From IMG/VR virus record IMGVR_UViG_3300029951_000076, positions 1 through 35,729 of that record: a stretch of 35,729 bases of DNA; one strand, 5' to 3'. Positions 18,037-35,689 of this stretch are shown here, piece by piece. Under the pieces are notes generated by a model. The model was not told where the DNA came from. It worked only from the letters and a program-made list of their open reading frames with translations, and made no database searches. Every line of letters starts with the position of its first letter. Within the stretch, counting starts at the first letter, position 1. Both the position numbers and the translations under genes were made by a program. Source of the DNA: a virus.

Positions 18037-18044
18037 TCGTTGGG

Positions 18045-20659: not shown

Positions 20660-20660
20660 C

Positions 20661-20680
20661 GGGAGAACCATTGCGTTCTA
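20661..20680 (+). promoter_or_regulatory. Early-type promoter motif 3
   Basis: GGGAGAACCATTGCGTTCTA starts 2 bp after the nuclease stop. Downstream, CCTAGT (20684-20689) pairs with ACTAGG (20722-20727), overlapping the GGGGAA ribosome binding site of the RDF gene. An inner GGGC/GCCC stem lies between them. Confidence 0.75.
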
Positions 20681-20736
20681 GCGCCTAGTACAGAGGGCAC
20701 TACGCCCCACACGGACGCTCAACTAGGGGAACCTGT

Positions 20737-21450: not shown

Positions 21451-21452
21451 GA

Positions 21453-21611: not shown

Positions 21612-21621
21612 GAGAGGCACC

Positions 21622-21927
21622 ATGGCTGAGGCAAAGAGGGAATCCCGCACGGTCGTCGAGAGGATCGTCACGCTTACGCTGACCCTCGACGAAGCGGAGT
21701 CGCTGAAGGCTGTCACGCGCAACGTGGCCGGCGACACGAAGCACAGTCGCCGGAAGGACATCGACGCTATCGGCATGGCACTGAGCAACGCCGGAGTGTA
21801 CGGGGAAGAGGCTGTTCGGTCGATCGACCGCAAGTCGGCTGGGGTGCTGTTCAAGCCCACCCCGACCGAAGTCACGTGGTCGCCCGGCGTCAGCACAACT
21901 AGCAAGCATTGGGGATCACTTGGGTAG
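21622..21927 (+). CDS. Small phage protein of unknown function
   Basis: The 101-aa protein begins with a basic N-terminus and a strand/helix block (VTLTLTLDEAESLKAVTRNV). A charged middle (HSRRKDIDAIGMALSNAGV) is followed by a polar tail. The ATG follows GGAGAGG. Its end overlaps the TTG of the next gene by 8 bp, indicating an operon. No family is recognised. Confidence 0.65.
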   Translation: MAEAKRESRTVVERIVTLTLTLDEAESLKAVTRNVAGDTKHSRRKDIDAIGMALSNAGVYGEEAVRSIDRKSAGVLFKPTPTEVTWSPGVSTTSKHWGSLG

Positions 21928-22195
21928 GCGTGGGGTCGTTACCGACTATGCGGGGGAAGAGCTTTACCCCGGCGATCTGATCAACTACAGCGCACGGCAG
22001 GGGAATCGCGTCCGGTCGACGGATGCGATTGTGATCAAGGCAACCACGGTCATGCTCGGGGGTCGACTTCAGCCCATGCTGAAGGTTCGTCCCACTGGCG
22101 TCGAGAGCGGGTTTACGTCCCGCAAGACCCTTCGCGCTGAGTGGATCAGCACAGAACACGCCCGACTGATCCTGCCGGGTGTACGCAACGACTAG
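21920..22195 (+). CDS. Small phage protein of unknown function
   Basis: The 91-aa product contains an SH3- or KOW-like strand pattern (VVTDYAGEELYPGDLINY, then AIVIKATTVMLGG). The TTG start follows GGGGATCA. It overlaps the previous gene and is followed by a terminator, ending this operon. No function is recognised. Confidence 0.6.
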   Translation: MGRRGVVTDYAGEELYPGDLINYSARQGNRVRSTDAIVIKATTVMLGGRLQPMLKVRPTGVESGFTSRKTLRAEWISTEHARLILPGVRND

Positions 22196-22203
22196 CAGCA
22201 CCT

Positions 22204-22247
22204 ACGGCCGGACAGTTCCCCAGTGGCACTGTCCGGCCGTTCGTCGT
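22204..22247 (+). terminator. Terminator ending the RDF operon
   Basis: ACGGCCGGACAG (22204-22215) pairs perfectly with CTGTCCGGCCGT (22229-22240). TCGTCGTTTC follows. Confidence 0.8.
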
Positions 22248-22259
22248 TTCGCCAACAAC

Positions 22260-22283
22260 CCACCTACTAACGTTAGTAGGTGG
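22260..22283. repeat. Conserved palindrome, copy 6 (24 bp, CG centre)
   Basis: Perfect core plus one paired C/G flank. It lies after a terminator and ends 12 nt before an ATG, with GAGAGGA as ribosome binding site between them. Confidence 0.95.
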
Positions 22284-22295
22284 TCGAGAGGACCC

Positions 22296-22472
22296 ATGCA
22301 GAAGGCCATAAGCAAAGCGTCCGCCCCGCCGATCGGAACCGTTCGAGGCATGCAGACCGGTGACGTGATTTGGGTCCATGCGAACGCGCGCCAGCGTCAT
22401 GACTGGGCGCGCTATTCCGTTGCCATTGGCGCTGCTGTCGGTCGAGGCGCTGAGGTTCGGAGGTTCGCGTAA
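22296..22472 (+). CDS. Small phage protein of unknown function
   Basis: This 58-aa basic protein starts at an ATG after GAGAGGA, just downstream of palindrome copy 6. It carries a VRGMQTGDVIWVHANA strand block and a basic C-terminus. The reading frame extends upstream to 22179, but that part contains the terminator and palindrome and is not coding. The stop overlaps the next ATG. Confidence 0.6.
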   Translation: MQKAISKASAPPIGTVRGMQTGDVIWVHANARQRHDWARYSVAIGAAVGRGAEVRRFA

Positions 22473-22582
22473 TGCACTCGTTCATTGTCGGCATGGTCAT
22501 AGGACAGGTCTACAACATCGTTTCCGCTGTCGTGCGGGAAGCGTGGGCGGGAGTGAAGGGTCGCAACCGTGACCGAGTCTGA
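22472..22582 (+). CDS. Very small membrane protein
   Basis: This 36-aa protein has a hydrophobic N-terminal segment (FIVGMVIGQVYNIVSAVV, residues ~4-21) and a basic tail with a VKGRNRDRV end. It overlaps the genes on both sides. A single membrane span with cytoplasmic basic tail is the likely topology. Such tiny phage membrane proteins sometimes alter the host envelope or exclude other phages, but nothing here shows which. Confidence 0.5.
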   Translation: MHSFIVGMVIGQVYNIVSAVVREAWAGVKGRNRDRV

Positions 22583-22655
22583 TCAGTGCCTACTCATGGT
22601 GGTGCTGGCAATCCTGATCATCATCACGAGCGGAGGGCGAACGCCACGTGTCTAA
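22569..22655 (+). CDS. Very small membrane protein
   Basis: This 28-aa protein starts at GTG and is mostly one hydrophobic helix (CLLMVVLAILIIITSGG, ~residues 7-23). It overlaps the preceding 36-aa gene by 14 bp and the following resolvase-like gene by 8 bp. The tight overlaps with intact flanking genes support a real gene, but its size leaves doubt. Confidence 0.4.
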   Translation: MTESDQCLLMVVLAILIIITSGGRTPRV

Positions 22656-23184
22656 CCCCAACAAAGAGCGCGGAACTAACTGGGAGTCAGCCGTACGCGA
22701 CTACCTGAACAACGCTCTCGGGCTGTATGTCGAGGGGTGGCGCGACCTGTCGGCTGGACTGACGAAGTTCCGCAATCCGGCCGACCCGCTCAACGTCAAG
22801 AGGCAGGCGCAGGAAGGGACTTACGACGTCGGCGACTTGCACGCGTGGCCAATCGTGGTCGAGTGCAAGGATGTTGCGAGTTCGGCCGTGCCAACCTGGC
22901 TGAGGCAAGCGCGAGTTGAAGCGAAGAATGCCGGATTCGCCTTCGGGGTGGTGGTCCACAAGCAACGGCGTTCCGGGGTCAAGGCCGGGCGGGTTCATGT
23001 CGACGTCCGCACCTTCACGCGGCTACGTCTGGTCATGGGCCTGAGTGCTCGACAGATGGTCAGTAGCTACGGCTTCCGCTGGTCGTTTCGCGGGCTCGAC
23101 TCTTCCCGCTGGTACCTGACGACCGACGTGCACGCCTTCTCGTCCATCCTCGCTGCCGTTCGAGCTGTGGAATACGCAGAGTGA
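22648..23184 (+). CDS. Holliday junction resolvase-like nuclease
   Basis: The 178-aa protein resembles Hjc-type PD-(D/E)XK resolvases. It starts with NKERGTNWESAVRDYL (E13 in the first helix), and the catalytic block is GDLHAWPIVVECKD (D63, E72, K74). The helical C-terminus is basic. It should cut branched DNA made during recombination or replication and help packaging. It precedes the primase-helicase gene and is separated from it by a terminator and early promoter 4. The GTG start overlaps the upstream tiny gene. Confidence 0.75.
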   Translation: MSNPNKERGTNWESAVRDYLNNALGLYVEGWRDLSAGLTKFRNPADPLNVKRQAQEGTYDVGDLHAWPIVVECKDVASSAVPTWLRQARVEAKNAGFAFGVVVHKQRRSGVKAGRVHVDVRTFTRLRLVMGLSARQMVSSYGFRWSFRGLDSSRWYLTTDVHAFSSILAAVRAVEYAE

Positions 23185-23185
23185 T

Positions 23186-23209
23186 CAAAGCGCCGGTGGC
23201 GCCCCTTTG
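23186..23209 (+). terminator. Probable terminator after the resolvase-like gene
   Basis: CAAAG-CGCC pairs with GGCG-CTTTG across a short loop, with a CCC bulge on the right arm. It has no strong T-tract. An early promoter motif follows about 50 bp downstream. Confidence 0.5.
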
Positions 23210-23262
23210 AAAATGCGGACGGAAACGGACATAGGTGTTTCCATGGAGCTAACGCAGAGTAA

Positions 23263-23282
23263 CGGAGAACCGTCCCGTTCTA
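23263..23282 (+). promoter_or_regulatory. Early-type promoter motif 4
   Basis: CGGAGAACCGTCCCGTTCTA fits the early promoter block. The leader hairpin GGCTTCC (23284-23290) with GGAAGCC (23299-23305) begins 1 nt later. Its right arm covers the AAGGGAAG ribosome binding site of the primase-helicase gene. Confidence 0.7.
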
Positions 23283-23307
23283 AGGCTTCCAACGAAAGGG
23301 AAGCCCC

Positions 23308-25740
23308 ATGAACTTTGCTGATGTGCTCGCACGATTCCGCAACGTGAGCCAGGAACCCGACAGCGGATACTCGGCACTGTGCCCCGCACACACCGACAGT
23401 CGCCCGTCCCTGCGGATATGGCGCGGAGACGATTTGAAGGTGCGGCTCACATGCCGTGCGGGTTGCAAGACCGAGGACGTGATCACGGCTGTCGGACTTG
23501 TGTGGGCCGACCTCTTCAACGTTGCGGGGGAGGGGCTGACCGTCCCGAAGGAACGGCCTTCACTGGTAGGCCCGTTCGCCGTTGCGTCCCTTCGCCGGTA
23601 CCTCGACGACACGGTGACCATCCTCCGGAAGCTGGATGACGAGTGGGCGATACGCGCGGCGACCTACGCCGAGTTGCGGTTTGGCCTCGATCCTGAAGCA
23701 GCCTTTGAGTTGAACCTAGGCGTAGACGACGGGCGCATGATCGACGGCTTCGCGTTTCGGTCACGCGCGTTCCTTGGCTTCCCGCGCCTCACGGTGCCGC
23801 TGGTCGGCTTCGACGGGGTCGCACGTGGCCTACAGGGGCGCGACATCAGCGGAGAGTGCCCCGCACGGTGGGTCTCCCTGGCCAACCCTCAGGGAGCCCG
23901 CTGGAGCCCCTACGGCGTGTTTCGCGGACAGGGTGGGTACTCGGTAACCATCGTCACTGAAGGCCCCGGAGACGCGCTCACAGCGGTTGCCGTCGGCTAT
24001 GACGCTGTAGCCGTGCGCGGTGCCTCGCTGGCCGGCTCGCCGGAACTCGCCGCCGAACTCGCCGAGGGACTTCGCGGCACTCAGGTGATCGTGTGTGGCG
24101 ACAACGACGCTGCCGGACAGGGCTTCAGTCGACGGCTTGCTGACGGACTCGCCGGACACGGCATCGAGGTCTACACGCTGCAAGTGCCGCGCGTCGGCGA
24201 CGACTTGACCGACTGGCGTGCACGTGACCCGGATGGCTTCCCTGACGCACTGCACCGCGCGGTGAAGGCCGCTCGACCGTCGCGTGACGCTGTCGAGGTC
24301 GAGGCAGCGAACGTGTCGGCCGAACTGACGGAGCGCACCGGTTCCGACACCGTGTCGAAGGCGCAGGGAACCGAAGCCGCTCGCATTCTCGCTGGGCTCA
24401 TCACGCGCTACGGCGAGTCCGATGCGATGAACGCTCACGCGCTGGTGTCGTGGTGCGGGAACCGGATCAAATTCGCGCCGGGTCTCGGGTTCTTCGTGTG
24501 GAGCGGGAACGTGTGGCAGCGCTCAACTGTCATGGTCCGACAGGAGATTCACCGGATGGGCGCGGCCCTGGTGCTTACCGGAGAGACGCAGAAGGCGCGT
24601 GCGTTCACGATGACTTCGCGTATCGACGCGCTGCTGACTGAGCTTCGCAGCGTTCCCAGTGTCCACGTGGACGCCAGCGAGTTCGACGCACGTCCGCACC
24701 TGCTGAGCTTCCGAAACGGCACGGTCGACCTGCGGACAGGCGAGATGCACCCGCACACCCAACACGACATGTTGACCTACTGCCTTGACCTCGACTACAA
24801 CCCGCAGGCCACGTGCCCCCGTTGGGACAATTTCCTGACTGAGATCTTCCCGGACAATCCCCAACTGCCGGACTACATACGCCGGTTGATCGGCTACGGC
24901 ATCACGGGCGAGACTAGCGAACAGTGTTTTGCCGTGCTGTGGGGCAAAGGCGCGAATGGGAAGAGCGTGATGACGGACACGCTTACCGCCGTTTTCCGGG
25001 AAATCTCGAAGACGACACCCTTCGCGACGTTCGAGGAAAAGCCGTCCGGCGGCATCCCCAACGACATTGCGGCGCTTCGCGGATGCCGGCTTGCAATGGC
25101 TTCCGAGGGCGAGTCAGGTAAGCCGATGAGCGAAGCCGTCCTAAAGCGTGTCACCGGGAAGGACGTGATCAGCGCACGGTTCCTGAGGCAAGAATTCTTC
25201 GAGTTCAAGCCGAGCTTTTTGCTCATGTTGGCCACGAATCACAAGCCGAAGTTTCGCGGGCAGGATGAGGGATTGTGGCGAAGGGTGAAGATGGTTCCCT
25301 TCAAAAGGTGGTTCTCGCCGGAAGAGCGTGACTACGACCTCGACTCGAAGCTACTCGCCGAAGCGGCCGGTATCGCGGCTTGGGCGGTCCGTGGAGCCGT
25401 CGAATGGTACGCCGGGGGACTCGACGACCCGTCCGTGATTTCCCGCGCCGTAAAGGCGTACAGGGAGACGTCTGACGCGCTCGCCGGCTTCTATCCCGGC
25501 GTCCTAGAGCCCGCTGGCGACGATGCCGTGATGCTCGGTACAGACGCATTCAATGCGTATCTCGACTGGTGCGAAGCCGAGAACCTTCCGCAGCGTGAAC
25601 GATGGACCCGCCGAACCTTCTATGACGCCATGGAAGAGCGGGGAATCGGTCGCACTAAGCGGCGAACCGGCATCGTGCTGATCGGCGTAAAGGACGCTTC
25701 GCCATTCGCTGAGAACGGTCCGGGAATCTTCGCCGGTTAA
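23308..25740 (+). CDS. Primase-helicase (CHC2 zinc finger, TOPRIM, SF3 helicase)
   Basis: The 810-aa enzyme should open the origin, unwind DNA and prime replication. C25, H28, C49 and C53 form a CHC2-type zinc site. The TOPRIM domain shows VTEGPGDAL (E218) and CGDNDAAG (D265, D267). A D5/P4-type SF3 helicase follows with Walker A GKGANGKS (546-553), an acidic ASEGESG segment and ATNHKPKF near residue 642. A VRGAVEWYAGGLDDP tail and an RRTFYDAMEERG helix close the protein. It resembles phiC31 and P4-like primase-helicases. It lies under early promoter 4 with the polymerase 12 bp downstream. Confidence 0.93.
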   Translation: MNFADVLARFRNVSQEPDSGYSALCPAHTDSRPSLRIWRGDDLKVRLTCRAGCKTEDVITAVGLVWADLFNVAGEGLTVPKERPSLVGPFAVASLRRYLDDTVTILRKLDDEWAIRAATYAELRFGLDPEAAFELNLGVDDGRMIDGFAFRSRAFLGFPRLTVPLVGFDGVARGLQGRDISGECPARWVSLANPQGARWSPYGVFRGQGGYSVTIVTEGPGDALTAVAVGYDAVAVRGASLAGSPELAAELAEGLRGTQVIVCGDNDAAGQGFSRRLADGLAGHGIEVYTLQVPRVGDDLTDWRARDPDGFPDALHRAVKAARPSRDAVEVEAANVSAELTERTGSDTVSKAQGTEAARILAGLITRYGESDAMNAHALVSWCGNRIKFAPGLGFFVWSGNVWQRSTVMVRQEIHRMGAALVLTGETQKARAFTMTSRIDALLTELRSVPSVHVDASEFDARPHLLSFRNGTVDLRTGEMHPHTQHDMLTYCLDLDYNPQATCPRWDNFLTEIFPDNPQLPDYIRRLIGYGITGETSEQCFAVLWGKGANGKSVMTDTLTAVFREISKTTPFATFEEKPSGGIPNDIAALRGCRLAMASEGESGKPMSEAVLKRVTGKDVISARFLRQEFFEFKPSFLLMLATNHKPKFRGQDEGLWRRVKMVPFKRWFSPEERDYDLDSKLLAEAAGIAAWAVRGAVEWYAGGLDDPSVISRAVKAYRETSDALAGFYPGVLEPAGDDAVMLGTDAFNAYLDWCEAENLPQRERWTRRTFYDAMEERGIGRTKRRTGIVLIGVKDASPFAENGPGIFAG

Positions 25741-25752
25741 GGGGGGACAGTC

Positions 25753-27597
25753 ATGCAGACCTACCGGCACACCATCGCTGGCGACGTAATCACAGTCAAT
25801 GTCCCCGAAGACCTCGACGACCTTATGCAGTTCGAAGACTGGGCGGCGGAAGCATCTCGCCGAGGACCGATAGCGCTCGATACGGAGACGACCGGGCTCA
25901 GTATCTTCTCACCCGGCTACAGGTTGCGGACCGTGCAATTCGGCGACGCTCATACGGCATGGGTCATCCACTATGAGCGCGGCGGATACTTCCGCACGCT
26001 GGTGCAGAACCTTTTGAGCGTCCCCGGAACGCGATTCGTCATTCACAATGCTGCCTTTGATTGGCTGGTGCTCGACAAGCACGCCGGGATCACACTGGAA
26101 TCGCTCGCACCGAAGACGACAGATACAAAGATCCTCGCTGCACTGTGCGACCCGAGACAGGCCAAGGAAGGGGGCACAGGGACGGGCCTGAAGCCGCTTA
26201 GCGCCCGCTTCGTTGACCCGTCGGCACCGGACACTCAGGGCGACCTTACGTCGGTCTTCAACAGCCTAGGGCTGACCAAAGAGACCGGATGGGCAGGCAT
26301 CCGGCTGGACCACCCCACCTACAATCTGTACGCCGGACTCGACGTCATCCTGACGGCGCGTCTACTGCCCTGCCTGATAGCCGAATTGGAATCACTCGGC
26401 GTTCGCAACGTGCTCTCTCAGTACGAACATGAAATCGCGCGAATCTGTGCCGTGATGCAACGGCGCGGGATGGTCCTCGACGAGGAGTACACCCGCGAAC
26501 TCGACGCGACCCTAGCGGCCGAAGCGTACGAATACACAGAGAAGGCAGCGCGCTACGGCGTCGAGAACGTCAACAGTACCGCGCAGATAGCCGAAGCCCT
26601 CGAAGGTATGGGGGAGGTACTGAGAGAGCGGACGGCATCCGGTGCTGTCAAGGTTGACAAAGCCGTGTTGTGCGCACTCGCTGACGTCGATCTTCAGTGG
26701 AACCGGCTCGACGTCCGCAAGCCAAATCCCTTGGCGGTAGCGGTACTTCGAAGCAAGCGCGCCGGCAAGTGGCGCACCACGTACGCGCAACGCTTCCTAT
26801 CCATGATGGACGCCGGGGGAAGGATTCACCCCGGAATCAACACGCTTGCCGCCCGGACAGGTCGCATGTCGGCCGACCTAGTTCAAACCCTTCCCTCAGG
26901 GGATGCGATGATTCGCCGCGCCATTCTCGCTGAAGAGGGCGAAGTGTTCGTGTCGACCGACTTCAAGGCTGTTGAGTTGCGGGTACTCGCGGCGCTCGCC
27001 GACGTGAAGAGGATGAAAGAGGCGATTACGGCAGGGGAGGACCTTCACGACTACACGGCAAGTCTGATCTACGGTCCCCAATTCACCCCGAAGCACAGGA
27101 AGTTGTCGAAGGGGGTTGGACTCGGGAAGGTCTACGGGGGCGGACCCGACACGCTGTCGAGGCAGACCGGTGCCCCCATCGAAGACGTCCGACGAGCCAT
27201 TGCGGCGTATGACCGCGTATACCCCGAAGTGAAACGAGCTTCGGGCCGATGGCAGCGCGAAGCGCGCGGTTCGGGAATGGTCTATATCTCGGCAATCGGT
27301 CGTCGACTTCCCCTCGACCGAGACCGCGCCTATGCAGTCGTGAATTATGCATGTCAGAGCACGGCAAGGGATGTCCTCGGGCAATCCATGCTGAACATGG
27401 AAGAGGCCGGATTGCTCGACAACTGCCGCTTGCCCATTCATGACGAAATGCTCGCGTCCGTACCCGTCGGCGAAGCAAAGGAGTACGCGCGCGAGTTCGA
27501 GAAGTGCATGACCTTTGCCCTTCGCGGCGTGCCCATCGAAGCCGAAGCCGAGATTGGTGGAAGGTCGTGGGGCTCGCTGTACGGGGCCGACTTCTGA
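25753..27597 (+). CDS. Family A DNA polymerase with 3'-5' exonuclease
   Basis: This 614-aa replicative polymerase has an exonuclease start IALDTETTGL (D43, E45). The polymerase domain carries motif A STDFKAVELRVLAAL (D403, E408), motif B KHRKLSKGVGLGKVYGG (447-463, R449, K453, Y461) and motif C IHDEM (H563, D564, E565). It is shorter than bacterial Pol I because it lacks the 5' nuclease domain, as usual in phages. The ATG follows GGGGGGA. The stop is 1 bp before palindrome copy 7. Confidence 0.95.
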   Translation: MQTYRHTIAGDVITVNVPEDLDDLMQFEDWAAEASRRGPIALDTETTGLSIFSPGYRLRTVQFGDAHTAWVIHYERGGYFRTLVQNLLSVPGTRFVIHNAAFDWLVLDKHAGITLESLAPKTTDTKILAALCDPRQAKEGGTGTGLKPLSARFVDPSAPDTQGDLTSVFNSLGLTKETGWAGIRLDHPTYNLYAGLDVILTARLLPCLIAELESLGVRNVLSQYEHEIARICAVMQRRGMVLDEEYTRELDATLAAEAYEYTEKAARYGVENVNSTAQIAEALEGMGEVLRERTASGAVKVDKAVLCALADVDLQWNRLDVRKPNPLAVAVLRSKRAGKWRTTYAQRFLSMMDAGGRIHPGINTLAARTGRMSADLVQTLPSGDAMIRRAILAEEGEVFVSTDFKAVELRVLAALADVKRMKEAITAGEDLHDYTASLIYGPQFTPKHRKLSKGVGLGKVYGGGPDTLSRQTGAPIEDVRRAIAAYDRVYPEVKRASGRWQREARGSGMVYISAIGRRLPLDRDRAYAVVNYACQSTARDVLGQSMLNMEEAGLLDNCRLPIHDEMLASVPVGEAKEYAREFEKCMTFALRGVPIEAEAEIGGRSWGSLYGADF

Positions 27598-27598
27598 C

Positions 27599-27620
27599 CA
27601 CCTACTAACGTTAGTAGGTG
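27599..27620. repeat. Conserved palindrome, copy 7 (22 bp core, CG centre)
   Basis: Perfect core, no paired flank. It lies 1 bp after the polymerase stop, at the head of a 300-bp stretch without a recognised gene. Confidence 0.95.
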
Positions 27621-27818
27621 ATCCGTGACCCTTCTGTGATGCGTCTCATCCTTAAGGATGGCTTGCCAATTCCCCTAGTCCCCGAGGTCGACTTAAGGTC
27701 TCGCTTCCCTTTCAAAGGTAGACCCCCAAAAGACAAGCTGCCAAGGTAGCTCATAAGCCCGTTGAGCTGCGGTTTTGCCGTCCGTAGGTTCTCGTTTCGC
27801 AACGACGAACGGCCCGCG

Positions 27819-27856
27819 CAAGCCCCGTCCACGCAACTTCCGGACGGGGCTTTGCC
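27819..27856 (+). terminator. Strong terminator before early promoter 5
   Basis: CAAGCCCCGTCC pairs with GGACGGGGCTTTG around an 11-nt loop. The A/T ends make it work in the + direction with a TTTG tail. Confidence 0.85.
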
Positions 27857-27879
27857 ATGCCCAGAAATGCCCCCCGTTC

Positions 27880-27899
27880 GGGAGAACCCTTGCGTTCCC
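27880..27899 (+). promoter_or_regulatory. Early-type promoter motif 5
   Basis: GGGAGAACCCTTGCGTTCCC matches the early promoter block. CTTGCG (27889-27894) can pair with CGCAAG (27907-27912), so the dyad here overlaps the promoter itself. It drives the sigma-like gene. Confidence 0.75.
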
Positions 27900-27938
27900 C
27901 ACTGAGCGCAAGAGCACTCAAACGAACGGGACGCACAC

Positions 27939-28739
27939 GTGATCGACCTTACCGAGCAGCAGATAGCCGACGCCAAGGCAAACGACCTCGAAGCCGTTAC
28001 GGCGGTCGTCAAGGCTACTGAAGCCCGTGTTCAGCAACTCGCATGGCGCTACGCATCGAACAACGGCCGGACCGATCTCGATCTGCTCGACGACCTAGCG
28101 CAGATCGGACGGATAGCCGTGTGGGAGGGAATCGCGCGGTTCGCCGGCCGGACCGTCGCCGAGTTCTTCAGCTTCATCGACGGCACCATTCAAGGCGTCA
28201 TGACGAACGCCAGGAAGACCGAGACCCGGCCCGGCGTCAGTCGCGCGGTCGCCGCCGAGTTCGAGCGGGCTTTGAGCGTCGCCGGGGGAGACGTCTACGA
28301 AGCCGAACGAATGGTTACGCAGACCGAAGTCATGGGAGCGCGGCGACTGTCGCCGGAAATGGCGCATGCGGCGCGACTGAGCTATCAGGGGGTCGAATAC
28401 CTCGACGCTCCCGTGAAGACCGGAGACCACGGGCTAACGCTCGCCGATTGGTTGGCGGCATCACTGGAAATGCCGACCGAACTACTTGAGTCATCCGACT
28501 TCGAGCGGGCTCGCCGGAACGCCACTCGCGACAAGGTTCACGGCGTACTCAACATGATGGGCAAGCAACAGCGAACCGTACTCAAGGCACTGACCGGAAT
28601 TGAACCGGTTGGCTACTACGGAACCGAGAATGACGAAGAACTCGCCTCTGACTACGGGTACCCGCCGAAGCGAATCAAGATCGCACGAAGCGAAGGAAAA
28701 AAGCAGTTCGCCGCACTCTGGGAGGTAGTAGGCGCGTGA
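27939..28739 (+). CDS. Sigma-factor-like protein
   Basis: The 266-aa protein shows a sigma region 2-like block LLDDLAQIGRIAVWEGIARF (residues ~49-68) and a likely region 4 HTH near the C-terminus (ELASDYGYPPKRIKIARS, ~234-251, followed by KKQFAAL). A KQQRTVLKAL helix precedes it. The layout suggests an RNA polymerase sigma subunit that could direct transcription of phage early or late genes. The GTG start follows a weak ribosome binding site (ACGGGA). It is the first gene under promoter 5, at the distal end of the early region. Direct binding to the early promoter motif is inference. Confidence 0.7.
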   Translation: MIDLTEQQIADAKANDLEAVTAVVKATEARVQQLAWRYASNNGRTDLDLLDDLAQIGRIAVWEGIARFAGRTVAEFFSFIDGTIQGVMTNARKTETRPGVSRAVAAEFERALSVAGGDVYEAERMVTQTEVMGARRLSPEMAHAARLSYQGVEYLDAPVKTGDHGLTLADWLAASLEMPTELLESSDFERARRNATRDKVHGVLNMMGKQQRTVLKALTGIEPVGYYGTENDEELASDYGYPPKRIKIARSEGKKQFAALWEVVGA

Positions 28740-28903
28740 TTCTCAAACTGGAGAACGGCAGCACTGTCGAGGTGGCCGAAGTAGCCGGCGGCTTCGACCT
28801 TCACCTTCGAAATGCCGAGGGTGAATCCATCGCCACAGTGGTTGCGCTGGACCCGCCGGCGCTGGTCGCCATGATCGCCCCACCTACTAACTTTAGTAGG
28901 TGA
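28736..28903 (+). CDS. Small phage protein ending inside a conserved palindrome
   Basis: This 55-aa protein starts at GTG 28736, overlapping the sigma-like stop (GTGA). It is mostly strand-forming (ILKLENGSTVEVAEVAGGF; IATVVALDPPALVAMI). Its last codons read PTNFSR and stop within palindrome copy 8, so that copy is both coding sequence and repeat. No family is recognised. The overlap with the upstream gene supports translation. Confidence 0.6.
   Translation: MILKLENGSTVEVAEVAGGFDLHLRNAEGESIATVVALDPPALVAMIAPPTNFSR
28881..28902. repeat. Conserved palindrome, copy 8 (22 bp core, CT centre)
   Basis: The core overlaps the last codons and stop of the 28736 gene. It ends 6 bp before the TTGACC box of a host-type promoter, the best operator-like position in the window. 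Confidence 0.95.
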
Positions 28904-28908
28904 TCCGG

Positions 28909-28937
28909 TTGACCGGCGCTCGACCGTGCCCTAGTTT
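28909..28937 (+). promoter_or_regulatory. Sigma70-type promoter
   Basis: TTGACC (28909-28914), a 17-bp spacer and TAGTTT (28932-28937) form a good host-type promoter. Palindrome copy 8 lies immediately upstream. The promoter should drive the 64-aa gene at 28974. Confidence 0.65.
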
Positions 28938-28973
28938 GAGCGTCGGCAAGCACCGCAACGGGAGGGTAGGAGC

Positions 28974-29168
28974 ATGGCCGCACGGCTGATGGTCACAGAC
29001 ATTCAGGCACTCGGGAACCGGGGCAGCGCTCGACAGTCGAAGATCTTGGCAACCGACGAACTTCGAGGGCCGGTGGAGGTCTACATGGCCGAAGCGGACG
29101 CTCGCACGCTGAGCGCTCAACTCGCCTACATCATCGGACAATGGGACCTCGACGACGCCAGCGAGTGA
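28974..29168 (+). CDS. Small protein with DELRGPV-type domain
   Basis: This 64-aa protein starts at an ATG after GGGAGGGTAGGAGC. Its residues ~25-62 (ILATDELRGPVEVYMAEADA onward) match the C-terminal domain of the 233-aa protein encoded at 29278. A host-type promoter and palindrome copy 8 lie upstream and a terminator follows, making it a self-contained, probably regulated unit. No function is recognised. Confidence 0.75.
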   Translation: MAARLMVTDIQALGNRGSARQSKILATDELRGPVEVYMAEADARTLSAQLAYIIGQWDLDDASE

Positions 29169-29179
29169 CTGACGACACG

Positions 29180-29199
29180 GCCCCCGCTTCGGCGGGGGC
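29180..29199 (+). terminator. Terminator after the 64-aa gene
   Basis: GCCCCCGC pairs with GCGGGGGC around TTCG, followed by TTCGTCGTTT. It is almost identical to the terminators at 18011 and 30000. Confidence 0.8.
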
Positions 29200-29277
29200 T
29201 TCGTCGTTTCTGCTGCGAAGCCGCATCCGCACATGGTACGTTCCTGCCGTACGAAACCAACGACGAGGGGTAAGGCA

Positions 29278-29979
29278 GTGCCGACCTACACCGTTCGCTA
29301 CACCCGCACTTCGAACCACATCGACGGCGTGAACATCCGTACCACGGGCGGCGGCAGCGACGTAGGCGGACACATCAGCTACTACGCGCAGAGCGCCTGC
29401 CCGTCGCTCACCCGCATGGGCACCCGAATGGGCGTAGGGAAGTCATTCGAAGACCCGAAGGAAGCCCTCGACAGCGCCCGCACGGCCTACAACAACAAGC
29501 TGTGCGCTGCGTGCGAGAAAGCCGCACTCGCTGAGCTTGCCGCGCTTGCTGAGGTCGAGCCGAAGCCGGTTGCACCGAGTGCGCCTCAGAACCTCCAGAC
29601 GCACACGGGGATGGTTCACGCAAAGGGTCGTTACTCAAACAGTCTTCGCGGCCCTATGCCTGCCTGCTGCACCAGTGAATCCGCTGTTTCCCGATACCAC
29701 TATGTAATCCCAACCAGTGAGCCCGTCGCCTGCAAGCGCTGCCTTGCGGGCATGGCAAAGGAGATTGAGACCGTGTCTGACGACATCAAGCGCGCGAAGC
29801 TGAAGGTATCAGGGGTCGTGCATGTTGGGGTGACTCCAGAGAAGGGGGTGTTCATCCTGGGGACCGACGAACTTCGCGGACCCGTTCAGATTGATCTCGC
29901 GAACTTCGACGCCCGATGGCTGTGGGCGAATCTCAACGACTTGAAGAATGGCGGCTTCCTCGACGTCGCCGAAGAGTGA
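29278..29979 (+). CDS. Cys-rich protein with C-terminal DELRGPV-type domain
   Basis: The 233-aa product starts at GTG 29278 after GAGGGGTAAGG; the frame is open upstream to 29233 but without a better start. Two Cys clusters are visible: SACPS with KLCAACEKAA (residues ~39-83) and PACCTSES with VACKRCLAG (~129-160). They probably bind zinc. The last ~45 residues (FILGTDELRGPVQIDLANFD onward) are paralogous to the 64-aa protein encoded at 28974. No family is recognised. DNA binding is possible but unproven. Confidence 0.75.
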   Translation: MPTYTVRYTRTSNHIDGVNIRTTGGGSDVGGHISYYAQSACPSLTRMGTRMGVGKSFEDPKEALDSARTAYNNKLCAACEKAALAELAALAEVEPKPVAPSAPQNLQTHTGMVHAKGRYSNSLRGPMPACCTSESAVSRYHYVIPTSEPVACKRCLAGMAKEIETVSDDIKRAKLKVSGVVHVGVTPEKGVFILGTDELRGPVQIDLANFDARWLWANLNDLKNGGFLDVAEE

Positions 29980-29999
29980 GCGCCGCAAACCATCTGACT

Positions 30000-30022
30000 G
30001 CCCCCGCTCCGGCGGGGGCTTT
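30000..30022 (+). terminator. Terminator ending the phage regulated region
   Basis: GCCCCCGC pairs with GCGGGGGC around a TCCG tetraloop, followed by TTTG. Palindrome copy 9 follows 12 bp later. Confidence 0.85.
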
Positions 30023-30031
30023 GTCATTTTG

Positions 30032-30059
30032 GACCACCTACTAACTTTAGTAGGTGGTC
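30032..30059. repeat. Conserved palindrome, copy 9 (28 bp, CT centre)
   Basis: CT-centred core with a GAC/GTC flank. It is the last copy; none was seen to the right, in the cargo region. A TTGGTTG-CGC-CAACCAA inverted repeat follows at 30063. Confidence 0.95.
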
Positions 30060-30263
30060 TATTTGGTTGCGCCAACCAACTAATGTGGCATGCACATGTG
30101 ATCTTCACGGGTTCGTTATCGCTTCGAAATAACCCCTACCGGAACCCGCTGGCCAGTTCTAGTGTGTTCCCTGGTCAGGGCGCTGGGGGTGGCTGAAAGT
30201 CCGCTGTCAGTGGCGCTCTGTATCGTGCAGTTCGAACGGATGTGCGAGACCGGGGGAAGTGAC

Positions 30264-30623
30264 GTGCAGCAATCAGACGACCACGAGGAGAAACCAACCG
30301 TCGAACTCAGGGTAGAAGTGGCTGGGCGAAGCCGCTTCGATCGGGGTAGGTGGGAACTGGCTGGGCCACAGTTCCCGTCTGCCCTGGACTACCTCTATAA
30401 CGGCGTAGAGCTGGCCCGTGCACTGCGGGTGTACGGGGCGGTGGTCGCGCGACTGCTGGACCGGGACGAAGCCAACTCCTTTCGGGTGCTGGCAACCAGC
30501 ACGCTGACCGGCGAGCCGGTAGGCGTGTGCGAATGGCAAGTGAGCCGCGAGACAGGGCAATGGTGGGCCGCTGAGGCACCCATGGTGCTGTGGGGGCCAC
30601 GGGACATGTGTACGGCCGCCTAA
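30264..30623 (+). CDS. Small protein of unknown function
   Basis: This 119-aa protein starts at GTG after GGGGGAAG; the frame is open to 30162 but the start there has no ribosome binding site. The sequence is acidic at the front (QQSDDHEEKPTVELRVEVAG). LVYNGVEL-like, RALRVYGAVVARLLDRDEAN and WWAAEAPMVLWGP segments suggest an alpha/beta fold. Upstream lie about 200 bp holding palindrome copy 9 and an inverted repeat. A bidirectional terminator separates it from the convergent DUF397 gene. No family is recognised. Confidence 0.6.
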   Translation: MQQSDDHEEKPTVELRVEVAGRSRFDRGRWELAGPQFPSALDYLYNGVELARALRVYGAVVARLLDRDEANSFRVLATSTLTGEPVGVCEWQVSRETGQWWAAEAPMVLWGPRDMCTAA

Positions 30624-30633
30624 GGGCAGCAAA

Positions 30634-30670
30634 GAGCCCCCTAGGGCCGATGGTGGGCCGTAGGGGGCTC
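30634..30670. terminator. Bidirectional terminator between convergent genes
   Basis: GAGCCCCCTA pairs with TAGGGGGCTC around a 17-nt loop. It ends both the + gene at 30264 and the minus-strand DUF397 gene. Confidence 0.8.
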
Positions 30671-30688
30671 AGGGGGCGCGCTGTTCGC

Positions 30689-30898
30689 TCAGACGGTAGG
30701 GAACTCGCCGGCCTTGATGGCGTCGACGAAGGCCGCGAACGCGTCCACGCCGAAGACCAGCGCGGGGCCGCTCGGGTCCTTCGAGTCACGGACGGGAGCC
30801 ACGCCGGGGATTCCTTCCCCCAGCTCGACACAGTTGCCGCCGTTGTCGCTGAAGCTGCTCTTGCGCCACTGAACACTCAAGTCGCTTGCATGGATCAT
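30689..30898 (-). CDS. DUF397 protein
   Basis: This 69-aa protein matches DUF397: VQWRKSSFSDNGGNCVELGE at the start, then PVRDSKDPSGPALVFGV and AFAAFVDAIKAGEF. DUF397 genes in Streptomyces usually sit next to XRE/DUF5753 regulators and are proposed to antagonise or bind them. Here its ATG overlaps the stop of the upstream minus-strand XRE gene, a tight coupling. It lies inside the prophage, before the attachment site. Confidence 0.85.
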   Translation of the reverse strand: MIHASDLSVQWRKSSFSDNGGNCVELGEGIPGVAPVRDSKDPSGPALVFGVDAFAAFVDAIKAGEFPTV

Positions 30899-31719
30899 GA
30901 CTTGCCACCTTTGAGGTAGTCGCTGATTAGCTGGGCCGTGTCGTCATGGGACAACGCCACTGACACCAACAGATCATAGGCGCGGCGACCTGCGGCCACA
31001 TCCTCCGGATCGGGGGACGTCCGTCCCTGCAAGAATCCGTCCGAGTAGAGCGCACCGTCTTTCTTCGGAAGAGAGAGCACGGTGAACGCGCCGGACAACC
31101 CCGGACGGTTGTGGACTCGGCTCGGTACGGCTTGGATCACCGTGCGGGGATGGCGACCTTCCGAGAGCAGTCGTTCGAGTTGAACTCGCATGACTTCACG
31201 CCCGCCTAGGTCGCGCCGTAGAACGGACTCGTCCATGACCACCCATGCGTGTAGCCGGTCGTCCCGCTCAAGGATCTCTTGCCGGGACATGCGCGCGGTG
31301 AGTAAGTCCTCTAGCCGGTCCTGGTCCGGCCGAAGCTGAGCCAGCGTCGCGCGGGCGTAGTCCTCCGTCTGGAACAGCGCCGGAACAATCTGCGGCTCGA
31401 AGATCCTTGCTTCTGTCGCCTGCCGCTCAAGGTCGACGTACGCGCCGAACCAGGACGGGTAAGCGTGCTGAAGCCACAGTGGTTGCAGTCCTTCAAACAG
31501 CTTGTCGGTGCGAAGGGTTCGGTCGAGTCCCTTGGCCTGTGCAAGAGAAGGGGTGCGCTTGCCCTTCTCCCACCGTGCGATGGTGCCCTGACTCTCGTTG
31601 TTCGCTGCGGCTAGGTCCCGCTGGGTCATCCCCAGCGCTTCCCGGCAGGCAGCTATCTGCGCCCCTGCCCATGCTGGCAAGGAAGTTGAGGGCTCGGGTA
31701 CCTCATCCTCTGCGGTCAA
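30895..31719 (-). CDS. XRE/DUF5753 regulator (prophage copy)
   Basis: The 274-aa protein has an N-terminal helix-turn-helix (IAACREALGMTQRDLAAANN, then SQGTIARWEKGKRTP) and a C-terminal DUF5753 domain (QTEDYARATLAQLRPDQ; VLRRDLGGREVMRVQLERL; VIQAVP; GAFTVLSLP). TTG at 31719 follows GGGAG. A longer start at 31746 has no ribosome binding site. It probably binds DNA and pairs with DUF397. Its divergent promoter region contains an operator-like inverted repeat. A host paralogue lies at 34868. Confidence 0.88.
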   Translation of the reverse strand: MTAEDEVPEPSTSLPAWAGAQIAACREALGMTQRDLAAANNESQGTIARWEKGKRTPSLAQAKGLDRTLRTDKLFEGLQPLWLQHAYPSWFGAYVDLERQATEARIFEPQIVPALFQTEDYARATLAQLRPDQDRLEDLLTARMSRQEILERDDRLHAWVVMDESVLRRDLGGREVMRVQLERLLSEGRHPRTVIQAVPSRVHNRPGLSGAFTVLSLPKKDGALYSDGFLQGRTSPDPEDVAAGRRAYDLLVSVALSHDDTAQLISDYLKGGKS

Positions 31720-31746
31720 GATGCACTCCCTTGATTCCGATTTCAA

Positions 31747-31779
31747 GCGTCATCACGTTTCTACTGTCTGTGATGATGC
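31747..31779. promoter_or_regulatory. Operator-like inverted repeat in divergent promoter region
   Basis: GCGTCATCAC (31747-31756) and GTGATGATGC (31770-31779) form a 9-of-10 inverted repeat with a 13-nt spacer. It lies between the minus-strand XRE gene and the + gene at 31840, a fitting place for autoregulation. Confidence 0.4.
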
Positions 31780-31839
31780 CCACCGCGCAACCTTGGTGAC
31801 ACCGGATCAGCGAAAACGCTCGACACGAGGTGCACGAGG

Positions 31840-32004
31840 ATGCCTAGAGACACGAAGCCCGAGTGGGTCGAGGGGTGCGACGCCTGCCGAGACCTTGAAC
31901 AGGGTTGGCGGGACGCCGGAACCGACGAGTCGGCGCGTGCTGACGTCAGGATTCTGACCGCCCGACACAAGCACGCCGACCACAGGCAGCAGGTGACCAC
32001 ATGA
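31840..32004 (+). CDS. Small protein of unknown function
   Basis: The 54-aa protein (PRDTKPEWVEGCDACRDLEQ near its start) carries a C-D-A-C pair and a His-rich C-terminal half (TARHKHADHRQQV). It could bind zinc. The stop overlaps the ATG of the next gene (ATGA). It begins the + strand cluster divergent from the XRE regulator. Similar small proteins occur beside XRE/DUF5753 genes in Streptomyces accessory regions. No family is recognised. Confidence 0.6.
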   Translation: MPRDTKPEWVEGCDACRDLEQGWRDAGTDESARADVRILTARHKHADHRQQVTT

Positions 32005-32273
32005 CGCCCCGCAAGGCCGCTCAGCCCCCCGCATACCGGCCGAGGCGCGGAGCAGCCGTCAGGGACGCTGCTACGGGCTTCGTGGGCCTCTTTCAGGCAT
32101 TCGAGTCGAAGGCGGTTGACCAGCGGGGCGTACAGACAGCGTTCATCCGGCCCTTTGGGGGTGGCGTCGAGGTCGAGGCCGCTCCGGAGATGCTTCGGGA
32201 GCCGACGCAGGACGAGATCCTGAGCGCCAAGGTTGCGGCAGAGAACAAGCGCAGCCGGGAACGGTGGGGCTGA
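32001..32273 (+). CDS. Small basic protein of unknown function
   Basis: This 90-aa protein has a basic, Pro-rich start (TPRKAAQPPAYRPRRGAA). FVGLFQAFESKAVDQRGV and VEVEAAPEMLREPTQDEIL segments lead into a charged C-terminal helix. It overlaps both neighbours (ATGA at each junction), so it is part of a translationally coupled cluster. No family is recognised. Confidence 0.6.
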   Translation: MTPRKAAQPPAYRPRRGAAVRDAATGFVGLFQAFESKAVDQRGVQTAFIRPFGGGVEVEAAPEMLREPTQDEILSAKVAAENKRSRERWG

Positions 32274-32548
32274 TGAGCTGGCTTGAGACGGCGGACGGTC
32301 GCCAGCTCGACGCCGTTCATGGCAAGTGCGCGACGTGCGGAACCCTGCAACTCGCCCTCAGCATTTCGCTGTTCGGATCAAAGCGGGAACGTCGGCATGC
32401 CCTGGGCGACTTACGCGACCACATGCGCGACGTGGTCCACCTGGACGGGCCGCCCGCTACCCCCGACGACGATTTCGCCGGTCTTCTCTGGTGGCCCAAG
32501 GTTTGGCCCGTGCTGTTGCCGAGTGCCAAGCGGTTGGTTGCCTCATGA
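32273..32548 (+). CDS. Small protein with possible zinc-binding motif
   Basis: The 91-aa product has a CATC pair (KCATCGTL), a HALGDLRDHMRDVVHLDG segment and a hydrophobic C-terminus (FAGLLWWPKVWPVLLPS). The two Cys and three His could form a zinc site. The ATG at 32273 overlaps the upstream TGA. No family is recognised. Confidence 0.55.
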   Translation: MSWLETADGRQLDAVHGKCATCGTLQLALSISLFGSKRERRHALGDLRDHMRDVVHLDGPPATPDDDFAGLLWWPKVWPVLLPSAKRLVAS

Positions 32549-32703
32549 TCCCCCCGGTCGGCCGGAGTCTCTGTCTGGTCGGCCGGGGCACCATCCCATT
32601 CCCAACTGAAGGGCGCGAAGGCATGTCCTGCCCAATCTGCGGCAAAGGAACACTGATCGGCCCCGATGGGCAGCGCTGGTGTCTGACGCACGGCCCGCTG
32701 TAA
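32545..32703 (+). CDS. Tiny zinc-ribbon-like protein
   Basis: The 52-aa protein ends with CPICGKGTLIGPDGQRWC and a nearby His, a compact CPxC...C...H ribbon. An internal ATG at 32623, preceded by GAAGGGCG, would give a 26-aa version containing the whole ribbon. It overlaps the upstream gene. Such mini zinc proteins recur in actinomycete mobile elements, but no function is known to me. Confidence 0.45.
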   Translation: MIPPVGRSLCLVGRGTIPFPTEGREGMSCPICGKGTLIGPDGQRWCLTHGPL

Positions 32704-32765
32704 CCCCATGATCGGCCCCGATCGTTGCGGTGCTCCCACGGCGCACGGTCGGGGCTCCAAAGACA

Positions 32766-32786
32766 CCCGCCCCTTTCCGGGGCGGG
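32766..32786 (+). terminator. Possible terminator
   Basis: CCCGCCCC (32766-32773) pairs with GGGGCGGG (32779-32786) around TTTCC. No T-tract follows. Confidence 0.4.
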
Positions 32787-32822
32787 CACCAAGATTCAGG
32801 AACCGACGGAAGGAGAACAGCA

Positions 32823-32996
32823 ATGCTCCCGAACGTCCGCCCGCTCATCAGCGGTGCACCGATCATCCCTGTGCCCACGTTGGGGGACCCGTTCCGGCCC
32901 ATCACCATGGGGACGTGCCCCGCCGGCGGAGACCACAACTGGGGCCAGTGGTCCGGCAAGACCCGATGCACCAAGTGTGGCCAGACGCAAGGCTGA
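32823..32996 (+). CDS. Tiny zinc-ribbon-like protein
   Basis: This 57-aa protein starts at an ATG after GAAGGAGAAC, a strong ribosome binding site. It ends with a ribbon-like TRCTKCGQTQ and an earlier CPAGGDHNWGQW. The rest is Pro/Ile-rich (LISGAPIIPVPTLGDPF). It precedes the kinase gene. No family is recognised. Confidence 0.55.
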   Translation: MLPNVRPLISGAPIIPVPTLGDPFRPITMGTCPAGGDHNWGQWSGKTRCTKCGQTQG

Positions 32997-33007
32997 AGTA
33001 GCAGTTC

Positions 33008-33035
33008 GGGAGGGAGCCCGCCGGGGTTCCCTCCC
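33008..33035 (+). terminator. Possible terminator or leader hairpin
   Basis: GGGAGGGA pairs with TCCCTCCC around a GC-rich loop. It lies 20 bp before the GTG start of the kinase gene, without a T-tract. Confidence 0.35.
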
Positions 33036-33055
33036 ACCCTTCGGAACGGAGCGAA

Positions 33056-33847
33056 GTGGAACCACATATTGACTGGGACGACCTTCCGGCAGACGTCCGG
33101 GAAGCCGTCGAGAAGCAGACAGGCAGCGCCATCGTTTCTGCCGAGACCGTGCCCGATGGAATCACGTGTCGAACGGCGCTGATCCTCGAAACGGCCGATG
33201 GCGACCGTCTGTTCATGAAGGGCGTACCCGTCGCCGACTTCGACGGCATGGCGGGACAGATCACGGAAGCGGCCATTCGCGAATCCGTCCAAGCGGTAAG
33301 CCCGCCGATGCGCTGGGAAACGATCGCCTCCGACTGGCACGTGATCGCTTTCGAATTCGTGGACGGTCGGCACGCTGACCTCAGCCCCGGTTCGGCCGAC
33401 ATCGAAGCGGTAGCCGACGTGCTGCGACTCGCCCAAAGCTGCAACCTGCGCAACTATCGGGTTCAGCGCTGGACCGACCGCTACCGGAAGTACCTGCGAG
33501 CTGGCGACACCGATTGGTTGGCTGGTGCCACGCTGCTGCACACCGACACGAACCCGCACAACCTGATGATCACGGATACGCGTGCGTACCTGATTGATTG
33601 GGCCATGCCTGCAATCGGCCCGAAGTTCGTCGACTTCGCACAGACAGCCGTGCGACTGCAAGAGGCAGGCTGTAGCGGCGCTCAGGCACGGGCATGGCTT
33701 GCTCAGTTCCCCGAGTGGGTACACGCCCGGCAGGAAGCCCGTGAGCGGTTCGTGAAGGTCATCTGTCGGCACTGGTCGGCGACAGTCGGCCCAATTGACG
33801 CACAAACGTCGAATGAGCGCTTTTGGGCACTACTGAGTGAGGAATAG
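33056..33847 (+). CDS. Aminoglycoside phosphotransferase-like kinase
   Basis: The 263-aa protein shows APH/choline-kinase-type motifs: a GDRLFMKGVP strand with K55, the catalytic loop LLHTDTNPHNLMI (H162, D164, N169) and a metal-binding D181 in LIDWAM. An acidic start and a helical C-terminal third complete the fold. APH-fold kinases act on many small molecules and some proteins. An antibiotic substrate is not implied. Start is GTG after GGAGCGAA. It lies in the cargo region, outside the phage palindrome set. Confidence 0.75.
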   Translation: MEPHIDWDDLPADVREAVEKQTGSAIVSAETVPDGITCRTALILETADGDRLFMKGVPVADFDGMAGQITEAAIRESVQAVSPPMRWETIASDWHVIAFEFVDGRHADLSPGSADIEAVADVLRLAQSCNLRNYRVQRWTDRYRKYLRAGDTDWLAGATLLHTDTNPHNLMITDTRAYLIDWAMPAIGPKFVDFAQTAVRLQEAGCSGAQARAWLAQFPEWVHARQEARERFVKVICRHWSATVGPIDAQTSNERFWALLSEE

Positions 33848-33861
33848 CGCACCCCAGAACG

Positions 33862-33901
33862 GCCCCGGCTGTCCGCTTCCCCCGTGGCGGATGGTCGGGG
33901 C
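33862..33901 (+). terminator. Terminator after the kinase gene
   Basis: GCCCCGGCTGTCCGC pairs with GCGGATGGTCGGGGC, including three G-U pairs, then TTCC. It ends about 60 bp before the next gene. Confidence 0.6.
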
Positions 33902-33960
33902 TTCCTGCTGTCGGCGACGCCTGCCATGATCAGCACCACCAAACACGAAGGGGGAGCACG

Positions 33961-34290
33961 GTGCAGGTCATAGAGGCTCAGGGGCGCAACGGGAAGCTTC
34001 GGTTCAATGGGCGCTCGATCACGATCGTTCGCGAGGGGTTCCTAGCGCGCTCGCTGGTCGGCGGGGGAGAGCGCTCGATACCGGTAAGTGAGATCACGTC
34101 AGTTGATTGGAAGAAAGCCGGATTCGGGTTGGGGTTCATCCGCTTCACGTTCGCCGGTAGTCGAGAGACACGGGGACGTGTCGGAAGCCGTCCCACGGCC
34201 GCTCAGCGGGACGCAAACGCCGTTACCTTCGTCCGACGTCAGCAACCCGCCTTCGAAGCCATCAGAGCGGCCATAGAAGCCGCTCAGTAG
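33961..34290 (+). CDS. DUF4429-like protein
   Basis: The 109-aa protein matches the DUF4429 pattern: EAQGRNGKLRFNGRSITIVR near the start, GGGERSIPVSEITSVDWKKA, then GFIRFTFAGSRE and a C-terminal helix. DUF4429 is a PH-like domain often found in actinomycete proteins. GTG follows AGGGGGAGCA. It is the last + gene before the attachment region. Confidence 0.65.
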   Translation: MQVIEAQGRNGKLRFNGRSITIVREGFLARSLVGGGERSIPVSEITSVDWKKAGFGLGFIRFTFAGSRETRGRVGSRPTAAQRDANAVTFVRRQQPAFEAIRAAIEAAQ

Positions 34291-34599: not shown

Positions 34600-34860
34600 A
34601 TGATGGTTGTTGTCTTCAGGACGACGTTCTTCAAGAACCTCTGGGCGGACGGCGAGGGCCTGGCCTTCGTGCACGGTGACCACTCCCGCCCGACCGCCTA
34701 CTTCTGGATCCACGCCACCCTGGCGCTGACCTCGCTGGTACTCGGGGTACTGGTCGGCTGGATCGGCCTCCGCGCCCTCCGCGCCCGCCGCGCCGAAGCC
34801 CCGCCGACGAACACCACAACGCCGGACCAGCGCCTCCCGGAACCCGCCGACCACTCCTGA
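34600..34860 (+). pseudogene. 3' fragment of an SCO4848-type membrane protein gene
   Basis: From about codon TTC at 34627 the frame encodes a host-like membrane protein: FFKNLWADGEGLAFVHGDHS, then a hydrophobic helix AYFWIHATLALTSLVLGVLV and a basic/Pro-rich tail. The normal N-terminus, a membrane segment, is absent, because the phage is inserted there. Phage sequence upstream supplies two in-frame ATGs at 34600 and 34603, which could express a short fusion starting MMVVVF. The missing 5' part should lie at the left end of the prophage. Confidence 0.75.
34606..34630 (+). other. Right attachment junction (attR-type) inside SCO4848-like gene
   Basis: The + strand changes here from phage sequence to the 3' part of an SCO4848-type gene: ACGTTCTTCAAGAACCTC encodes TFFKNL, and the known phiBT1 site encodes ITFVKNL in the same gene. 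The phage-side GGTTGTTGTCTTCAGGAC resembles, from memory, part of the phiBT1 attP arm, though in opposite orientation to that system. The exact crossover cannot be set from one junction. Confidence 0.7.
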
Positions 34861-34867: not shown

Positions 34868-35689
34868 TCAGCCGGCGAGGTCGTGGGCGGTGGCGGCGAT
34901 CAGGGCGACTGAGTCGTCGGGGGAGAGGGCGGTGGCGGTGAGGAGGTCGTAGGTGCGCAGGGCGGCCTTGACGTCGGCCGGGTCGGCCAGGATCTGGCCC
35001 TGGCGGAAGCCGTCCACGTAGAGCACGTCCGGTCCCTCGTCCAGGGTCATCGCGGCGAACGGGCCGGCCGCACCGGCGTGGCCGCCGACCGAGTAGGGCA
35101 CCACCTGGATCACCGTGCTCGGCGACTCGGCGGCGGCGACCAGCCGCTCCAGCTGCGCCCGCATCACCGCCCTGGAGCCGATGTGACGGCGCAGCACGTT
35201 CTCGTCCAGCACCAGCCAGAGCTCCGGTGGCGGCTGCCGGGTGAGGATCAGCTGCCGTTCCCGCAGGGCGGCCAGCAGCTCATCGGCGACCGCTCGCTCC
35301 GGCCGGGACGGCGCCAGTACCGCGCGGGCGTACTCCTCGGTCTGCAGCAGCCCGGGCACCACCTGCGCCTGGAACGAGCGGATCGTGGTGGCCGCCTGCT
35401 CCAGCTCCACCCAGGGCCGGAACCAGGCCGGGTAGGCGTATCTGACCACGAGCTTCCACAGCCGCTGGAAGTGGTCGCCGGTGCCGAACAGCTCGTCGCA
35501 GAGCACCGAGAGGTCGAAGGTGGGCAGCCGCTTGGTCGCCTCGACCTTGTTCAGCAGCGACGGTGACATGTGCGCCGCTCTGGCGAGCTCCGCCTGCGGC
35601 ACCCCGGCCCGCTCCCGGGCCCGCCGCAGATCAGTCGCATAGAACGAGAGCACCGACCCGGTCGGGTCCAGCTCCGCCGCGTAGCCCAC
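34868..35689 (-). CDS. Host XRE/DUF5753 regulator
   Basis: The 273-aa protein has an XRE helix-turn-helix (RRARERAGVPQAELARAAHM; LLNKVEATKRLP) and a DUF5753 domain (VVPGLLQTEEYARAVLAP; VLRRHIGSRAVMRAQLERL; VIQVVPYS; AMTLDEGPDVLYVDGF). It is paralogous to the prophage regulator at 30895 but sits in higher-GC host DNA beyond the junction. The GTG start at 35689 fits. Its DUF397 partner is not visible in the remaining sequence. Confidence 0.88.
   Translation of the reverse strand: MGYAAELDPTGSVLSFYATDLRRARERAGVPQAELARAAHMSPSLLNKVEATKRLPTFDLSVLCDELFGTGDHFQRLWKLVVRYAYPAWFRPWVELEQAATTIRSFQAQVVPGLLQTEEYARAVLAPSRPERAVADELLAALRERQLILTRQPPPELWLVLDENVLRRHIGSRAVMRAQLERLVAAAESPSTVIQVVPYSVGGHAGAAGPFAAMTLDEGPDVLYVDGFRQGQILADPADVKAALRTYDLLTATALSPDDSVALIAATAHDLAG

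Follow-up and report, generated by a model that had tools for sequence, protein, structure and literature searches.

The closest described attachment system is that of the Streptomyces phage phiBT1, a laboratory tool whose target is the SCO4848 gene. Its core has been named as GT (PMC5937489). In this system, ends are joined solely according to whether their central dinucleotides are complementary, and gp3 has been published as the recombination directionality factor (PMC3836970). Reviews report a polar effect of phiBT1 insertion on SCO4849 and a delay in germination, and SCO4849 has been added to vectors as a repair or for neutrality (PMC7460540, PMC13346255). The phiBT1 record has attP at 38686-38770 and, on the same strand, int at 38804; read toward int, the centre of attP is TGGACA-GT-GATCCATGG, and the attP dyad matches at 15 of 23 positions around GT. 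The SCO4848 coding strand reads TGGATCACTTTCGTCAA, an exact 24-mer present in 65 of 395 family genomes. The 9-bp identity of phiBT1 is with the reverse complement of this strand, and phiBT1 int must therefore adjoin the 3' half of the gene. The orientation of phiBT1 attB and the polarity of its prophage were thus deduced from the attP record and the SCO4848 coding strand rather than from a lysogen junction; a phiBT1-like prophage record (L015/L201, L015 being 96% identical) is trimmed at the gene borders and at int and gives no att junction. Here, we describe a prophage that, very probably through a phiBT1-clade large serine integrase, entered a small membrane-protein gene of the SCO4848 family at the same codon as phiBT1 but with the opposite polarity.

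Results

The window (the whole stretch of DNA analysed, 35,729 bases of an IMG/VR virus record) is most of a phiC31/phiBT1/TG1-type prophage in a Streptacidiphilus-like soil bacterium, with host DNA in its final 1.1 kb (Table 1). Blastn of the right end and of the body against the phage collection gave no match, and protein searches were therefore needed. The body carries, in order, genes for the small and large terminase subunits, portal, protease, major head protein, tail proteins, endolysin, gp3, primase(-helicase), and DNA polymerase, followed by accessory genes at the right end. The order of terminase, tail, endolysin, gp3, primase/polymerase, and attP is that of phiC31/TG1/Lomovskayavirus-type temperate actinophages, and, together with the common replication module, it places the window among the phiC31/TG1/phiBT1-like phages. 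The DNA polymerase is 62.9% identical to that of phiC31 (63 to 66% for phiC31 and TG1) and 66 to 68% identical to those of the Streptomyces phages Sebastisaurus and Heather. Unlike in phiC31 and TG1, the integrase belongs to the phiBT1 clade and the structural genes are distant: the terminase (large subunit gene at 501-2012) is only 38 to 39% identical to those of phiC31, phiBT1, and TG1, its best match being that of the Pontimonas phage phiPsal1 (52%). Judged from these identities, the genome is a mosaic, with a terminase nearest to a Pontimonas phage (52%) and a polymerase like those of Streptomyces phages (68%). Directly after the major head protein gene, a 139-aa ORF made up almost entirely of His, Lys, and Arg codons was observed at 5613-6032.

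Table 1. Coordinates of the features in the window and, where indicated, in contig L085
Feature	Position	Strand	Basis
Prophage body	3..34290	+	Pfam and PHROGs matches
gp3 homologue, putative recombination directionality factor	20737..21450	+	54% identity to phiBT1 gp3
APH-like phosphotransferase gene near the right end	33056..33847	+	Pfam PF01636
DUF4429 gene, final phage gene before attR	33961..34290	+	Pfam PF14472, E 1.5e-15
Chimeric ORF from phage ATGs (MMVVVFRTTFFKNLW...)	34600..34860	+	Read from sequence; expression doubtful
P half-site of attP (non-integrase side), within attR	34601..34623	+	23-nt dyad with the L085 P' half, 17/23
8-bp GACGTTCT common to attL and attR	34623..34630; L085 1039-1046	+	Identity of both ends
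Inferred crossover dinucleotide AC	34624-34625	+	Centre of the dyad; homologous to the crossover codon of phiBT1
Remaining 3' portion of the interrupted host SCO4848-family gene, Thr24 to stop codon	34624..34860	+	NF046117; intact homologues L004-L012, G013
Host HTH/DUF5753 regulator gene, downstream of the target gene	34868..35689	-	PF19054, E 5e-55; same neighbourhood in G013
Serine integrase, 594 aa	L085 1099-2883	Same as SCO4848 5' half	Resolvase PF00239 and Recombinase PF07508

At the right junction, the phage side reads GGTTGTTGTCTTCAGGAC (34605-34622) and is followed by GACGTTCTTCAAGAACCTC (TFFKNL), as the first-pass annotation had read it in proposing that an SCO4848-like gene is cut at the codons used by phiBT1. 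This proposal was borne out by the match of the chimeric ORF to NCBIfam NF046117 (SCO4848 family; 52.3 bits for a cut-off of 45), against which the intact sister protein scores 83.4 bits. The intact homologues of nine named Streptacidiphilus genomes share the consensus MxLSRRASWFLxAFG[IV]WSxWIW[VIA]TFFKNLWAD; they start with MKLSRR or MRLSRR, and their first transmembrane segment runs to W[VIA]TFFKNLW. In the window, the frame before Thr24 is phage sequence throughout, and no intact 5' part of the gene lies upstream of attR. The host flank is 85% identical over 1.1 kb, DUF5753 regulator included, to the Streptacidiphilus genome G013. The sole match of the host fragment to a viral contig (L003) was rejected as a chance match.

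The left prophage end, absent from the window, was supplied by a terminase search that returned two near-identical phage contigs. One of them, L085, is 99.93% identical to positions 1-5905 of the window and reaches 5.1 kb further left. It carries, in order, a host D,D-carboxypeptidase gene (dacC, PF00768), the 5' half of the SCO4848 gene (start at 971), and the serine integrase gene, so that the left end lies in the same host gene and not in unrelated host DNA. The 5' half ends with MKLSRRASWFLTAFGIWSIWIWVTF and a stop; after ...WIWVTF, the phage sequence supplies this stop codon (GTG ACG TTC TAG). Joining the 5' flank of L085 to the 3' flank of the window restores an intact SCO4848 gene of 101 aa as one uninterrupted ORF, and this empty site aligns contiguously with the uninterrupted locus of G013 (86.4% over 2,173 bp), so the break at the junction is not due to chance. 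The integrase is 50% identical to that of phiBT1 over about 590 aa and groups with it at 100/100 in the tree. Its Resolvase and Recombinase domains, a length within the range of about 590 to 600 aa, and a SCO4848-family site at the TF(V/F)KNL codons are those of a phiBT1-type large serine integrase, in line with the earlier suggestion of a related serine integrase acting on the same gene. A scan for promoters and terminators near attL found nothing. A perfect 28-bp inverted repeat, at the start of an HNH-like gene, has one copy in the early region (window 22258-22285) and the other to the left of the terminase (L085 3850-3877).

The other join of the two ends gives attP as TGATGGTTGTTGTCTTCAGGACG-AC-GTTCTAGAAGACACTAACCATCA, an imperfect dyad in which 17 of 23 positions agree between the halves around AC, against no more than 8 around any other centre within 8 bp on either side. 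We therefore infer a crossover at AC, the dinucleotide that opens the Thr24 codon; the core of phiBT1 lies at this codon. The exact P-arm pattern of the window gave no further match elsewhere in viral contigs. Comparison of these att sites, obtained through L085 and G013, with the phiBT1 attP and the SCO4848 coding strand supported the first-pass reading: the P arm (non-integrase side) is joined to the end of the gene opposite to that expected for phiBT1, since it adjoins the 3' half here while the phiBT1 core requires the 5' half. The prophage resembles phiBT1 in its target gene, crossover codon, integrase family (50% identity), gp3-type directionality factor, P arm, and overall genome order, and int immediately adjoins attP in both. 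It departs from the phiBT1 attachment system proper, in which GT is read toward int and int lies behind the 3' half: the centre here is AC, int lies behind the 5' half, and the prophage lies in reverse. The host also differs from that of phiBT1, being Streptacidiphilus-like.

Integrases of the phiBT1 clade were sought in 395 family genomes, 393 genus genomes (partly overlapping samples), and viral loci. Five further intact integrations were found, in G370 (L188/L228/L229), G210 (L189), G666 (L221), G191 (L190), and G134 (L191), in each of which int follows the SCO4848 5' half directly and AC stands at the crossover; in G370, G210, and G666, attR is centred on AC, in agreement with attL. The G370 element is a 41-kb phiC31-type prophage, and the other four measure 5.6 to 9.2 kb. 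Elements with decayed or incomplete sites (G688 at L220, G376, G309, G700, G571, and G165) were left out of the att comparison. An intact attP dyad was found upstream of int in five viral contigs, with AC in four (L122, L093, L095, and L089) and CA in L155. In the latter, the dyad upstream of 3390, beside a phage integrase of the phiBT1 clade, reads TTTGGACT-CA-GGTCCATG, perhaps indicating a different target or another change of polarity.

A full-length SCO4848 copy adjoins attR, on the strand opposite to int, in all five intact elements. The association of int with such a copy persists in the partly decayed elements of G688, G376, G309, G700, and G571, that of G688 (2.2 kb) holding little beyond the two. 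The small Streptomyces elements (G210, G191, G134, G666, and G688) share the phiBT1-clade integrase, site, polarity, and AC core with the window prophage, from which they differ by their size (2 to 9 kb) and by the full-length copy beside attR, the site of G688 being decayed. In the window prophage, a replacement copy was sought and not found, the only matches being the two halves of the interrupted gene. When six element copies were compared with the interrupted genes, identity was 155/216 in the 36-bp attB region and 340/414 in the flanking coding sequence (Fisher p = 0.003), which is only suggestive of a greater divergence at the attB region, as constraint may differ along the gene. We found no description of natural elements carrying an SCO4848 copy in the literature searched, a partial coverage that is no proof of novelty, and none of these small SCO4848-targeting Streptomyces elements in the papers searched. 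Besides its SCO4848 copy, the 8-kb element of G210 (L189 6873-9072) has, as read by eye, an apparent AICE-type replication initiator and a GntR regulator, and a homologue of the gp3-type directionality factor (33% identical to that of the window) lies directly before the copy.

Discussion

Altogether, the prophage is a polarity variant of a known system, and its direction is opposite to that of phiBT1 because the two-letter core that sets the direction is reversed. According to the established serine-integrase mechanism, integrase dimers would bind attP and attB and cut both at the central dinucleotide; the sole AC-to-AC religation would then join the P arm to the 3' half of the gene and the P'-int arm to its 5' half. 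With int then lying about 60 bp beyond the 5' half of the target gene, the promoter of that gene could transcribe it, and excision would need the integrase together with the gp3-type directionality factor (Table 1).

Since the left and right ends come from two metagenomic contigs belonging to different IMG/VR records, with 3 positions and 1 gap differing in 5.9 kb, they could stem from different integration events or strains; two lysogens of almost identical phages, each in its own host, would then underlie the polarity described here. We consider this very improbable, as each end independently interrupts the SCO4848 gene at the identical base and the joined ORF is perfect and contiguous with G013 over 2.17 kb. 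Even with two lysogens, the conclusion on polarity would stand, because int adjoins the 5' half and the P arm adjoins the 3' half, each end alone showing it. The junction itself, seen at the end of a single metagenomic contig, might also be taken for an assembly chimera or a decayed remnant. This reading has next to nothing left in its favor: the left end found in L085 matches and so refutes it in substance, and the intact integrase ORF there, the codon-precise junction, the dyad in attP, and the use of the same site by five other elements in sequenced genomes speak against it as well.

As to how the reversed core arose, the whole attP may have been inverted relative to int in comparison with phiBT1, a flip that is cheap to imagine as the half-sites are dyad-like, and the inner half of the phiBT1 P' arm (CATGGATC) does resemble the inner half of the P arm in G210 and G666. 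Yet, the resemblance of the phage arm to a phiBT1 attP arm, noted in the first-pass annotation, holds for the P arm: the window P arm matches the P arm of phiBT1 with a score of 13, which none of 1,000 shuffles equalled, and not its P' arm, for which 734 of 1,000 shuffles did as well. The int-side flank GCGCAGGTCAGC is, moreover, common to the window phage and phiBT1. We therefore hold an inversion of the whole attP to be rather unlikely, and the likeness of the P arms would favor a change at the attP centre. As to which polarity is derived, the integrase trees nest phiBT1 and L015 among AC members, although some inner branches are not strongly supported. The simplest reading of these sequences is that phiBT1 would be the flipped member and the AC polarity the common state of the clade. 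Hence, the altered polarity initially suggested for this prophage holds relative to phiBT1, while within the clade phiBT1 would be the exception.

The same annotation had supposed that phage-supplied ATGs could keep the truncated host protein expressed. In-frame ATGs do exist at 34600 and 34603, and the family score is above the cut-off, but no Shine-Dalgarno-like sequence is visible upstream of 34600 and the chimeric ORF lacks residues 1 to 23, i.e., the first transmembrane segment. The insertion would thus more likely cause a loss of function of the target gene.

Of the secondary findings, the pattern of replacement genes is the most interesting, the element-borne SCO4848 copies presumably replacing the broken gene. 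A broader model, for and against which we see about equal reason, would make SCO4848 a recurrent target of a clade of phage and small-element integrases, in which int usually lies behind the 5' half and is probably transcribed from the target promoter; many members would bring a full-length substitute for SCO4848, with changes in the attB codons that would make it a poor target, and phiBT1 would be a derived, polarity-flipped member devoid of it. If so, the missing replacement copy would help to explain why phiBT1 insertion is not neutral. The presence of SCO4848 copies on natural elements makes the cost of SCO4848 loss directly testable. The prophage also provides a natural case in which orientation at a fixed site is reversed along with two base pairs, as the serine-integrase mechanism predicts, and the new integrases, together with the att pairs predicted for them at the phiBT1 site, are relevant to vectors for Streptomyces and Streptacidiphilus. 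No close viral relative of the APH-like gene of the window was found when sought; APH-like kinase genes adjoin attR both in the window prophage and in the G191 element (L190 9341-10318), and could possibly represent a cargo gene common to the two.
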